From Sphingomonas sp. M1-B02 (GTDB lineage: Bacteria; Pseudomonadota; Alphaproteobacteria; Sphingomonadales; Sphingomonadaceae): a stretch of DNA of 64,000 nt. The translations under genes and the position numbers were made by a program. Shown here piece by piece: positions 24,905 to 33,519 of the stretch (position 1 is the first letter of the stretch; the number at the start of each line of letters is the position of its first letter). The notes beneath the pieces are model-generated. The model saw only the letters and a program-made list of their open reading frames with translations. It had not been told where the DNA came from and did not search any database. The stretch lies in contig NZ_CP110679.1 of assembly GCF_026167525.1 (NCBI RefSeq), positions 2,963,501 to 3,027,500 of the forward strand. Reading direction: 5' to 3'.

Positions 24905-26299
24905 TCAGACGTGGATCGGCTTACCCAGCACGGCCATCGCCGCTTCCTTGATCGCTTCGCTGTGCGTGGGATGCGCATGGCAGGTGTAGGCGATGTCTTC
25001 GGACGTCGCGCCGAATTCCATCGCCTGGGCGACCTGGGCGATCATCGTGCCGGCAGGCGCGGTGATGATCCAAGCGCCGAGCACGCGATCGGTCTTGGCG
25101 TCGGCGATGACCTTCACCCAGCCGGTGGTGTCGTCGATCGCCTTGGCGCGGCTGTTGCCCGCCATCGGAAATTTGCCGACCTTCACCTCGCCCTTCTCGC
25201 GCGCCTGCTCCTCGGTCAGGCCGACGCCGGCGATTTCGGGGTGGGTGTAGACCACGCTCGGGATGACATCGTGGTTCACGATGCCGGTGAGGCCGGCGAT
25301 ATTCTCGGCGACGGCAATGCCTTCATCCTCGGCCTTGTGCGCGAGCATCGGGCCGGGGATGACGTCGCCGATCGCCCAGACGCCGGCGACCGCGGTGCGG
25401 AAGCTGTGGTCGGTCTCGATCTGGCCGCGCTGGTTGGTGGCGAGGCCGATCTTGTCGAGGCCGAGGCCTTCGGTATTGGGACGGCGCCCGATCGAAACGA
25501 GCACGGCATCGGCTTCGATCGTCTCGCCGGCGCCGCCGGCGGCGGGCTCGACGGTGACGGTCGCCTTGTCGCCGTTGACCGTAACCCCGGTGACCTTGGT
25601 GCTGAGCTTGAGCTCCATGCCCTGCTTCTTGAAGATCTTGGCGGCTTCCTTACGGACTTCGCCGTCCATGCCGGGGAGCAATTGATCGAGATATTCGACG
25701 ACGGTGACCTTGGCGCCCAGCCGCATCCAGACCGAGCCCAGCTCGAGGCCGATCACGCCGCCGCCGATCACGACCATATGGGCGGGGACCTTCTCCAGTG
25801 CGATCGCGCCGGTGGAGTCGACGACCACTTTCTGGTCGATCTCTACGCCGGGGAGCGGGGTTACCGACGAGCCGGTGGCGATGACGATGTCCTTGGCGGT
25901 TACGGTGCGCTCACCAACCTGCACGGTATGGGCATCGACGAAGCTGCCGAGGCCCTTGATCCACTCGATCTTGTTCTTCTTGAACAGGAATTCGATGCCG
26001 CCGGTGAGGCCGCTGACGGCCTTGGCCTTGTCGGCCATCATCGCCGGCAGATCGAGCTCGACCGAGCCGAGCTTGACGCCATGCTTGGCGAGCGAGCCCG
26101 AGGCCGCCTCGTGGAATTTCTCCGAGGCGTTGAGTAGCGTCTTGGAGGGGATGCAGCCGACATTGAGGCAGGTCCCGCCCAGCGTCTCGCGGCTTTCGAC
26201 GCATGCGGTGCGCAGCCCGAGCTGCGCGGCGCGGATCGCGGCGACATAGCCGCCGGGGCCGGAGCCGATGATCAGGACGTCGAAATCATAGTCAGCCAT
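24905..26299 (-). CDS. lpd: Dihydrolipoyl dehydrogenase (E3)
   Basis: 464 residues, normal length. FAD-binding GSGPGGYVAAIRAAQLG is at the N-terminus, the redox disulfide motif is GGTCLNVGCIPSK, the NAD-binding motif is VIGGGVIGLELGSVW, and the C-terminal interface carries the catalytic His in HAHPTHSE. It reoxidises the lipoyl groups of 2-oxoglutarate dehydrogenase (and possibly pyruvate dehydrogenase). It is the last gene of the leftward TCA cluster, separated from sucB by a DUF433/DUF5615 pair. Its start lies 8 bp inside the DUF5615 gene, so its translation may depend on reading that gene. Confidence 0.98.
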   Translation of the reverse strand: MADYDFDVLIIGSGPGGYVAAIRAAQLGLRTACVESRETLGGTCLNVGCIPSKTLLNASEKFHEAASGSLAKHGVKLGSVELDLPAMMADKAKAVSGLTGGIEFLFKKNKIEWIKGLGSFVDAHTVQVGERTVTAKDIVIATGSSVTPLPGVEIDQKVVVDSTGAIALEKVPAHMVVIGGGVIGLELGSVWMRLGAKVTVVEYLDQLLPGMDGEVRKEAAKIFKKQGMELKLSTKVTGVTVNGDKATVTVEPAAGGAGETIEADAVLVSIGRRPNTEGLGLDKIGLATNQRGQIETDHSFRTAVAGVWAIGDVIPGPMLAHKAEDEGIAVAENIAGLTGIVNHDVIPSVVYTHPEIAGVGLTEEQAREKGEVKVGKFPMAGNSRAKAIDDTTGWVKVIADAKTDRVLGAWIITAPAGTMIAQVAQAMEFGATSEDIAYTCHAHPTHSEAIKEAAMAVLGKPIHV

Positions 26300-26666
26300 G
26301 TTGTTGGTGCTCCAGCGGCATCGAGCGGACGATGCCTCCCGTTTCGATAGTGATAAAGTGCGACATAGGATCGATCAGCCCCTCGCGGAACAGATCGAGG
26401 AAAGATTCAGCGACGATCCGGGCATGTTCCGGACGACTGCGCATATAAACGACGCCCAAGGGCGGCGGACTTAGCGCTCCGAAGATCTGGCGGCTGAAGT
26501 CGCTATCGAACGTCACCAGCACCCGGTCCTCGCGGCGCGCTTGCGCCATGATGTCCGGCTCGAGCGCGCTCGGACTGGACTCCGCTACGACGAAACAGTA
26601 ATGGCCAAGCGACCTGAGTGCCGTTGCCACCAGCAAGGGCACATTCTCGTCGATCAGAAAACGCAC
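26292..26666 (-). CDS. DUF5615 PIN-like protein, putative toxin
   Basis: 124 residues of the DUF5615 family, PIN-like nucleases. The N-terminal acidic motif FLIDENVP and the second acidic cluster VTFDSDFSRQIFG are visible, matching the pattern of acidic residues in PIN-type RNases (toxins of VapC style). It follows the DUF433 gene by 2 bp, the usual antitoxin-toxin order, and its 3' end overlaps the lpd start by 8 bp. Toxicity and RNase activity are inferred from the family. The pair is inserted inside the 2-oxoglutarate dehydrogenase operon. Confidence 0.85.
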   Translation of the reverse strand: MRFLIDENVPLLVATALRSLGHYCFVVAESSPSALEPDIMAQARREDRVLVTFDSDFSRQIFGALSPPPLGVVYMRSRPEHARIVAESFLDLFREGLIDPMSHFITIETGGIVRSMPLEHQQHG

Positions 26667-26668
26667 TC

Positions 26669-26905
26669 TCAGGCAGCCCGCGGCACCAGATCATAATGCT
26701 GCCGCCCGACAATTTCGCGCGACATTGCGAACACGGCTTTGAGATTGTCGGGTGTCAGACGCGGATAGTTCTCGAACAATTCGGCTTCGGACCAGCCGGC
26801 GGCGAGCCAATCGAGAATGATCTCGACGGTGATACGGGTGCCCTTGATCACGGGCTTTCCGCCCATGATGTCGGGGTTGACCTCGATATGCTCGCGCCAG
26901 TCCAT
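26669..26905 (-). CDS. DUF433 protein, putative antitoxin
   Basis: 78 residues. It starts near HIEVNPDIMGGKPVIKGTRI, the DUF433 signature, with a winged/helix-turn-helix-like region ILDWLAAGWSEAELFENYP. DUF433 proteins are commonly paired with DUF5615 partners as antitoxins that also bind DNA. The start is an ATG preceded by a purine-rich GGGGCGGAAG. It lies 10 bp after sucB, so it is almost certainly co-transcribed with the TCA operon. Confidence 0.85.
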   Translation of the reverse strand: MDWREHIEVNPDIMGGKPVIKGTRITVEIILDWLAAGWSEAELFENYPRLTPDNLKAVFAMSREIVGRQHYDLVPRAA

Positions 26906-31144: not shown

Positions 31145-32029
31145 TCAGCCCTTGAGGCGTTCGACCAGCGTCGAGCCGAGCTCGGAGGGGCTGGCCGCGA
31201 CCTTGATCCCGGCGGCTTCCATCGCCGCGATCTTGCTCTCGGCATCGCCCTTGCCGCCCGATACGATCGCCCCGGCATGGCCCATGCGACGGCCCGGAGG
31301 CGCGGTGCGGCCGGCGATGAAGCCCGCCATCGGCTTCGAGCGGCCGCGCTTGGCTTCGTCCATCAGGAACTGCGCCGCCTGCTCCTCGGCGTCGCCGCCG
31401 ATCTCACCGATCATGATGATCGACTGGGTGGCGTCGTCGGCGAGGAACAGTTCGAGCACGTCGATGAAATTGGTGCCGTTGACCGGATCGCCGCCGATGC
31501 CGACCGCGGTGGTCTGGCCGAGGCCGGCATTCGTGGTCTGGAACACCGCCTCATAAGTGAGCGTGCCCGAGCGCGAGACGACGCCGACCGAACCCTTGGA
31601 GAAGATGCTGCCGGGCATGATGCCGATCTTGCACTCGCCGGGGGTGAGCACGCCGGGACAATTGGGGCCGATCAGCCGCGATTTGCTGCCCGACAGCGCG
31701 CGCTTGACCTTGACCATGTCGAGCACCGGAATGCCCTCCGTGATGCAGACGATCAGCGGCACTTCGGCGTCGATCGCCTCGAGGATCGAATCCGCCGCGA
31801 AGGGGGGCGGGACGTAGATCACGCTGGCAGTCGCGCCGGTGCGGGCCACGGCTTCCTCGACGGTGTCGAACACCGGCAGGCCGATATGCTCGGTCCCGCC
31901 CTTGCCGGGGGTGACGCCGCCGACCATCTGCGAGCCATATTCGAGCGCGGCGAGGGTGTGGAATTCCCCCGTCTTGCCGGTCATGCCCTGGGTGATGACC
32001 TTGGTATTCTTGTCGACGAGGATGCTCAT
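31145..32029 (-). CDS. sucD: Succinyl-CoA synthetase alpha subunit
   Basis: 294 residues. The N-terminal [18 protein letters not shown], CoA-binding [10 protein letters not shown], and the phospho-His loop near [20 protein letters not shown] are all present. It converts succinyl-CoA to succinate with SucC, the beta subunit. The start is the ATG at 32029; an extension upstream would run into the flanking repeat. SucC would normally be just upstream but the position is occupied by the GIY-YIG unit and mdh, so sucC must be elsewhere in the genome. Confidence 0.97.
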
Positions 32030-32050
32030 TGGCTTGACCGTTTCCTTATC

Positions 32051-32081
32051 CCACCCCGGCGAAGGCCGGGGCCCAGTTGCG
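32051..32081. repeat. Left terminal inverted repeat of the GIY-YIG unit
   Basis: A 31-bp sequence ending in CCCAGTTGCG toward the gene, with an internal 7-bp-stem hairpin CCCCGGC/GCCGGGG and GAAG loop. It matches the right repeat at all 31 positions in inverted orientation. Confidence 0.93.
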
Positions 32082-32087
32082 ATGCAC

Positions 32088-32384
32088 TCAGGGGTGCGCG
32101 ATCGCGTCGTACAAATCATTCCACTCGGGATTCAGGCCTTCGATTTCCCTGATCTTCCAGACCCGCTTCCATTCCTTCATCTGCCGCTCGCGCTGCCGCG
32201 CCGATTCCAAGCTGCCGTGCGGTTCGTACCAGACCAGCAACTTGCAACCGTATTTCCTAGTGAACCCTTCGACGACGCCTTCGCGATGTTCCCAGACTCG
32301 TTTTGCCAGATCGAATGCCGAGCCGAGATATAGCGTTCCGTTCCGCTCGCTCGCCATGATGTAGACATAGCCCTTGTCTTCCAT
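32088..32384 (-). CDS. Small GIY-YIG domain endonuclease
   Basis: 98 residues of the small COG2827/UPF0213-type GIY-YIG family. The motif pair appears as GYVYIM and TLYLGS, followed by the catalytic-type Arg in [10 protein letters not shown], and a Glu in [14 protein letters not shown]; the tail NPEWNDLYD is typical. It probably nicks or cuts DNA using one metal ion; related small proteins have been reported to act on single-stranded DNA in repeats. The start is the ATG at 32384 with GGAG twelve bases upstream, at the edge of the right repeat. It lies alone between two inverted repeats inside the mdh-sucD interval. Confidence 0.9.
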
Positions 32385-32395
32385 CGCAGATGCTC

Positions 32396-32426
32396 CGCAA
32401 CTGGGCCCCGGCCTTCGCCGGGGTGG
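32396..32426. repeat. Right terminal inverted repeat of the GIY-YIG unit
   Basis: Exact inverted copy of 32051-32081. Its inner edge overlaps the GGAG that probably serves as the ribosome-binding site of the nuclease gene, so transcription entering from mdh would form a large stem pairing both ends. Confidence 0.93.
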
Positions 32427-32442
32427 TTCAATTCCTCTTCGA

Positions 32443-33519
<1,077 letters not shown>

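Follow-up and report, generated by a model that had tools for sequence, protein, structure and literature searches.

A REPIN-like pair of hairpins holds a GIY-YIG nuclease gene between mdh and sucD in Sphingomonas sp. M1-B02

In the 64,000-nucleotide stretch of Sphingomonas sp. M1-B02 DNA analyzed here (the window), a small gene for a GIY-YIG nuclease lies between mdh and sucD and is enclosed by two hairpin-forming repeats (Table 1). As the original prediction had it, the two flanks are exact reverse complements over 31 bp. The match can be extended to 36 nt at 94%. Also given correctly were the gaps of 6 and 11 bp between flanks and gene and the 37 bp of mdh-sucD spacer that remain. Moreover, each flank does fold alone as single-stranded DNA, into a stem of 7 bp and a loop of 4 nt, leaving a tail of 10 nt unpaired (-10.1 kcal/mol), and an equally good fold was obtained in 2 of 200 shuffles of the arm. 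The tail side of the repeat includes GGGG-CCCAGTTGCG, the CCA-type tail being unpaired in the fold, and the unpaired tails of both arms point toward the gene. The two copies start 352 bp apart, and the possible ribosome-binding site shares one base with the inner end of the start-side repeat. When a body of the same size was placed every 100 bp along the window, one of 628 positions was framed, and this position is the unit itself; the framing of the nuclease gene in the window is more than chance.

Table 1. Coordinates of the unit, its neighbors, and the sucB-lpd reading frames in the window.
Feature	Position	Strand	Basis or remark
Two small ORFs between sucB and lpd	26292-26666 and 26669-26905	-	
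sucD, downstream neighbor	31145-32029	-	Start codon set at 32029; listed frame extends to 32119
Spacer between unit and sucD	32030-32050	.	21 bp
REP hairpin, stop side of gene	32051-32081	+	Exact inverted copy of 32396-32426; on the + strand the order toward the gene is head, stem-loop, tail; the 36-nt match at 94% reaches 32086
GIY-YIG nuclease gene, 98 aa	32088-32384	-	ORF and PF01541 match
GGAG, possible ribosome-binding site	32393-32396	-	8 bases 5′ of the ATG, read from the sequence
REP hairpin, start side of gene	32396-32426	-	Exact inverted copy of the stop-side hairpin; the 36-nt match at 94% begins at 32391
Spacer between mdh and unit	32427-32442	.	16 bp
mdh, upstream neighbor	32443-33495	-	Frame is an upper bound; true start probably further in

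The window protein matches the GIY-YIG model PF01541 with 46.9 bits (cut-off 22.6). This is its only Pfam match, and the HUH Y1 domain PF01797 is absent. An alignment of 66 homologues, in which the window protein is the first row and hence carries every invariant residue, is invariant at G16, Y19, G21, R29, H33, L50, E66, K70, N85, and D90; Y8, Y19, R29, H33, E66, and N85 of the window protein are conserved positions of the family, and some of the invariant residues we take to be those of the catalytic GIY-YIG active site. With a domain above the curated cut-off and conserved residues of catalytic type, the protein belongs to the GIY-YIG superfamily. Its confident AlphaFold2 model (mean pLDDT 94.1, pTM 0.86) finds UPF0213 (1zg2) as the closest fold by Foldseek (E 2.7e-4, 26% identity), with Slx1 chains next, and the closest named relatives among the matches listed are Sphingomonas proteins, 84% identical at best. 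A phage origin is rejected, as none of 50,697 phage records matches the nuclease. The same applies to a plasmid origin: 33 of 72,556 plasmid records match, all below 60% identity, and the 15 matches listed are all on records of at least 304 kb, two of them being chromosome-sized 2.17-Mb records of Neisseria gonorrhoeae.

Is the arrangement particular to this window? Nuclease homologues occur in 44 of 61 related genomes, and 92 loci were examined, corresponding to 97 of the 123 search rows; the 26 rows excluded are weaker matches (E 5e-10 or worse). A locus was counted as framed when an inverted repeat scoring at least 16 (match +1, mismatch -2, no gaps) was present within 250 bp on both sides. 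By this measure 69 of the 92 homologues are framed (58 of 73 within the genus), compared with 0 of 357 shifted controls. An independent sample of the phylum covered 398 genomes, with matches in 155 at E ≤ 1e-8, from which 70 loci were taken, namely 30 returned by the search and the next 40 by E-value outside the own family. Four were discarded, as two duplicated loci already counted, one gave no usable hit, and one lay at the end of a contig; 42 of the other 66 are framed (own family, 5 of 7; same class, 26 of 33; other classes, 11 of 26), while the controls gave 1 of 253; L370 and L399 overlap and are alike unframed, apparently a single gene entered twice, which would make the fraction 42 of 65. 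A clear frame is absent at 23 of the 92 loci in relatives and at 24 of the 66 in the phylum sample. As a stricter background, 200 kb of each of two REP-rich relatives was scanned every 100 bp, and 5 and 4 of 1988 positions were framed, one position in each being the unit itself. Where the orientation of the tail could be read, 53 of 69 arms point toward the gene, 10 are reversed, and 6 are ambiguous. Unlike this family, other GIY-YIG hits (UvrC, UPF0213-like proteins, and one in a long frame) are framed by repeats in 0 of 10 cases. The repeated framing of GIY-YIG genes for which the original prediction called was thus found both in relatives and phylum-wide, and the contrary outcome, in which other copies of the gene stand without repeats, was not. 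The framing is no accident and is more general than can be seen from the window alone.

The 92 genes fall into 42 clusters of genomic context and, judged by comparing repeats and proteins, nuclease lineages keep their hairpin type at different genomic sites. On a nuclease tree built by a quick method from few columns, with 36 of 88 inner forks weakly supported, the REP class changes 13 times, against a mean of 34.2 and never fewer than 29 in 300 shuffles; this count rests on 52 framed genes in 11 shared classes, 17 genes with a class of their own being excluded. Reduction to one gene per class and site (28 rows) leaves 13 changes against 19.5 in shuffles, never fewer than 16. REP similarity also rises with protein identity over 2153 pairs from different genomes and different sites (r = 0.196; 0 of 2000 permutations as high). 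The REP is shared by 69% of 13 pairs at 70% identity or more, by 14% of 123 pairs at 60 to 70%, and by 0 to 3% below. Of 55 comparisons, 38 found a gene's REP to be more similar to the REP of the closest homologue elsewhere than to the REP of a different nuclease in the same genome, 15 found the reverse, and 2 found no difference. The nucleases of one genome are distinct, in that 1 of 70 within-genome pairs reaches 70% identity; the many near-identical gene copies per genome expected of an insertion sequence were not found.

The hairpin core is itself a dispersed repeat, with 42 matches in the 3,605,070-bp genome and none for the reversed control pattern. Besides the unit, the genome (G000) holds nine inverted pairs with starts 46 to 81 bp apart and tails inward. 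At least two subfamilies share the core, according to the 30 of 42 places that were read. The first resembles the unit, combining a CCA head with a CCCAGTTGCGA-like tail; in the second, a CGTCA head goes with a CCCATCTC tail, the combination seen around another nuclease locus, at 554 kb. In all, the genome carries three small genes of this GIY-YIG type, and no two of them are framed by the same hairpin. The third copy (L001, ~554.0 kb) has an in-frame TAA, and its CGTCA...CCCATCTC repeats are also dispersed. In relative G024, 12 of 14 dispersed pairs in a 200-kb stretch around the unit start 75 to 77 bp apart, in the orientation of the unit. Two inverted REPs with a short spacer, dispersed over the genome, are what a REPIN consists of, and such pairs are found in both G000 and G024. 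Repeats without a gene are the more variable: at three sites mapped in G024 and G034, one genome has a pair of the hairpin family that we label A and the other has another repeat family or other sequence. The unit is a REPIN-like pair holding a gene, and the scattered, many-copy form is the short gene-less repeat pair. Orthologous sites with pairs of different families (L301-L310 in G024, L311-L320 in G034) look as if sites had been reused.

Dispersal was also compared with framing across Sphingomonas genomes, with copies near nucleases removed and a gene counted as framed when at least one side carried the hairpin. In these one-sided tests, which ignore kinship between genomes, three hairpin families are commoner in genomes whose nuclease they frame, that is, family A (p = 0.0017), TGCTGAA hairpins (p = 0.00015), and CCTTG hairpins (p = 0.0018). 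For dRS3-like hairpins the claim is not supported (p = 0.064). The predicted enrichment failed for the TGTCCCC type, which frames the G017 copy: its one framed genome has no dispersed copy, and the counts are one in G017 (the framing one), none in G019, and 13 in G007. The claim is therefore supported by three of the five families tested and unsupported by two. Family-A repeats are abundant in several genomes although they do not frame a nuclease there (G035, 102; G029, 82; G020, 46; G017, 40; G031, 38). The copies read from G031 (eleven) and G033 (three) mostly have a different head and tail, and these resemble the head and tail at a second clade-A gene of G022 (L037), a likeness that is suggestive only. 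In samples of 12 to 27 copies per genome, the dispersed head and tail are those of the unit in G000, G009, G024, and G034, partly in G018, and not in G005. In G018 (L045 and L321-L330), dispersed family-A copies mostly have a CACCA head and often a CCCAATTGG tail, whereas at the unit ends the head is TGTT and the tail CCCAGTTGGG; here the enzyme and its repeat may be mismatched.

The first 110 residues of sucD find a match in 59 of 61 genomes, and the nuclease stands at mdh-sucD in 15 of 37 Sphingomonas genomes, a shared site from which we conclude that the gene is mainly inherited in place. Thirty mdh-sucD junctions were read, 13 with the nuclease and 17 without the unit. The original prediction was therefore right that orthologous junctions lacking the unit exist, and the outcome that would have spoken against it, with the gene at mdh-sucD in all relatives and no empty sites, did not occur. 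Eight of the 30 junctions are short and empty (23 to 94 bp), and seven hold longer other sequence (547 to 943 bp). One junction (L137, G007) holds a REP pair without a gene, and another (L134, G033) appears on reading to hold a decayed 3′ end of the nuclease. Other sequence of several hundred bp, gene-like in several cases, is present at L131, L132, L133, L138, L140, L148, and L150 and in G002 and G023. The site seems to accept insertions often. The nucleases at mdh-sucD in G019 (L126) and G017 (L143) have a different stem (TCCCGC type), which in G019 occurs in REP pairs flanking the gene on either side and in G017 in an upstream pair only; dispersal of this hairpin in these two genomes was not supported by the one pattern tried.

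In G002, G023, and G029 the mdh-sucD junction lacks the nuclease and the gene lies ~5 kb away, between sucB and lpd, where REP pairs were read base by base on both sides of it in G002 and G029. The sucB-lpd junction of the window has no nuclease and instead holds two small ORFs (Table 1), presumably a DUF5615/DUF433-like pair. Genome G005 has nuclease genes at both junctions, 52% identical to each other. Hence, the unit has been gained, lost, or relocated, but rarely. The original prediction went further and proposed that the protein moves or maintains its own unit; movement of the unit is, as stated, unsupported, the gene being mostly resident, and relocation has left few signs, namely the sucB-lpd position in three genomes and the two genes of G005. 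What emerges looks like a mostly resident enzyme that serves mobile repeats.

Short palindromic repeats are common in bacterial genomes, and for the GTAG class of REPs a partner enzyme is known. The CGTC superfamily, which occurs mainly in Alphaproteobacteria and includes dRS3 of Neisseria, was said in 2013 to 'lack a dedicated transposase', and the term GIY-YIG does not occur in the main text of that paper (Di Nocera et al., PMC3733652). By a loose pattern, 83 of the 111 framing arms (69 + 42) have a CGTC-like head, and the remaining 28 come largely from the clade of the window. The window repeat has the unpaired CCA-type tail of the superfamily and begins with CCA in place of a CGTC (or TGTC, CCTC) head. 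This clade stands out because its hairpins have no CGTC head, which is still present in L046, a relative at the same junction.

The parallel with Neisseria drawn in the original prediction turns out to be a real homology. Two homologues in N. viridiae, 51% identical to the window protein, lie among dRS3 repeats (L290, E 4e-32). The other one (L298) has an in-frame stop. Their nearest relatives in the set examined are mostly Sphingomonas proteins, 62 to 70% identical, which mostly carry the same or nearly the same CGTCATTCCCGCG hairpin as N. viridiae in spite of the different host class. Among the PF01541 hits of N. bergeri, N. polysaccharea, and N. weixii, no close homologue was seen. Ssn proteins are reportedly site-specific single-strand nucleases of the GIY-YIG superfamily (Chenal et al., Nature Communications, 2025). 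The Ssn of Neisseria is said to cut single strands at such repeats and to affect transformation, and to have many homologues with other specificities, each with its own repeat. By these features, the window nuclease is probably an Ssn-type member: it is homologous to a Neisseria nuclease among dRS3-type repeats, and its presumed cognate sequence is repeated in the genome (42 core matches, control 0) and flanks the gene on both sides.

On balance, we consider it reasonably probable that the unit is a REPIN, two REPs with tails inward, enclosing the gene for its own enzyme. That enzyme would be a REP-associated nuclease of the GIY-YIG superfamily, probably of the Ssn kind, and RAYT-like for its repeats. 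This explanation starts from what is observed, that is, the framing, the lineage-specific hairpin, the dispersal as short inverted pairs, the variable presence of the unit at one junction and its appearance at a second, and the absence of RAYT-type domains from most carriers. The main rival is a purely regulatory role. The enzyme-repeat pair would be real and would mobilize nothing; cutting of single-stranded DNA would tune uptake, recombination, or the entry of foreign single strands, the framing would serve autoregulation or mark the unit as self, and the repeats would have spread by other means. The residence of the gene mostly at one site (15 of 37 genomes), the homology to Neisseria genes, and the reported effect of Ssn on transformation are all in keeping with such a role, which we regard as unlikely yet worth serious consideration. 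It leaves unexplained why G024 and G034 differ in where they have REPIN-sized pairs, whose length is nearly constant, and why three REP families are commoner where their nuclease is.

The hairpins could also be RNA or transcription elements, acting in mRNA stability or termination, that surround the gene by chance of its position in an operon. REPs are intergenic and probably transcribed here, and RNA roles have been proposed for many of them (PMC3733652). However, the stems are not followed by a T-run, Rfam gave only two sub-threshold matches, and the framing recurs with the nuclease at other sites; a terminator or other RNA element is rejected on the first two grounds, and this explanation as a whole is very improbable. 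GIY-YIG domains occur in homing enzymes, and the unit might be a free-standing homing element in which the nuclease cleaves an empty mdh-sucD junction and repair then copies its gene into it, with the repeats as passengers. The coexistence of occupied and unoccupied junctions would fit, as would a weak match to TIGR01453, a model of group I intron endonucleases (20.5 bits, cut-off 56.05), but homologues in 42 context clusters that nevertheless have lineage-specific end repeats, together with repeats present genome-wide without the gene, make homing slightly less credible still. Least likely of all is the capture of the nuclease gene between two REPs dispersed by a RAYT or other transposase, as RAYTs are thought to do for GTAG REPs (PMC3116915; PMC8266576), since many repeated captures, with a matching repeat each time, would be needed. 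PF01797 was found in 3 of the 37 Sphingomonas genomes; G000 and the REP-richest genomes (G018, G022, G024, and G034) are not among them, and a RAYT is unlikely as the general driver.

To return to the REPIN with its own enzyme, the following sequence of events can be envisaged. A REP would fold when its DNA strand becomes single during replication, repair, or uptake. The nuclease would read the stem, loop, and tail of its own REP family and nick beside the hairpin. Through repair or strand exchange at the nicks, the short pairs of REPs with their spacer would be copied into new intergenic sites, with the gene mostly staying put and evolving together with its repeat. The most likely first step is that the protein recognizes its own REP in folded, single-stranded form and makes a nick next to it; the homology and the co-variation of enzyme and hairpin point to this. 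The conversion of nicks into new REPIN copies by host repair or strand exchange is suggested by the layout and by the parallel with RAYTs. The whole system would work like a REPtron with an unrelated enzyme.

The recurrence of the arrangement in many bacteria points to this family of enzymes as the partner that a large class of bacterial repeats has been lacking, and the pairing provides a candidate partner for the CGTC class in several classes of Pseudomonadota. We see about an even chance that these GIY-YIG proteins are the general missing partners of CGTC REPs. They would then form a second, independently evolved REPtron in which no HUH transposase takes part: REPINs would be dispersed by a mostly resident nuclease whose specificity co-evolves with the hairpin, a switch to CGTC-less hairpins in Sphingomonas included. 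Matched sets of enzymes and hairpins with putatively different specificities may be useful for understanding how a nuclease of ~98 residues reads a folded single strand. Among the papers that searches of the open literature listed, no title or abstract links GIY-YIG proteins to REPs, and the terms 'GIY-YIG' and 'repetitive extragenic palindrom' co-occur in one paper (PMC9465073).

How does the unit compare with known systems? UPF0213 (1zg2) and Slx1 have a similar fold. The window repeat resembles CGTC REPs in being a hairpin with a CCA-type tail that forms dimers and occurs mainly in Alphaproteobacteria, and differs from them in its CCA head and in a 7-bp stem without an A-T start. Like Ssn, the nuclease is a small single-domain GIY-YIG protein, it is homologous (51%) to the N. 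viridiae proteins among dRS3 repeats, and in both cases the many homologues have their own repeats; unlike the Ssn of Neisseria, it resides in Sphingomonas, and the hairpins of its clade lack the CGTC head. The likeness to RAYTs and REPs raised in the original prediction is close in layout. As in REPtrons (RAYT/TnpA-REP), the enzyme genes are mostly single, distinct, and flanked by REPs, the repeats form inverted pairs (REPINs), and enzyme and repeat co-vary; RAYTs within a genome are likewise distinct (Bertels and Rainey, PMC3116915). The systems differ in the enzyme, here a GIY-YIG protein and not an HUH Y1 transposase, and in the repeats, which here belong to or descend from the CGTC type and not the GTAG type.
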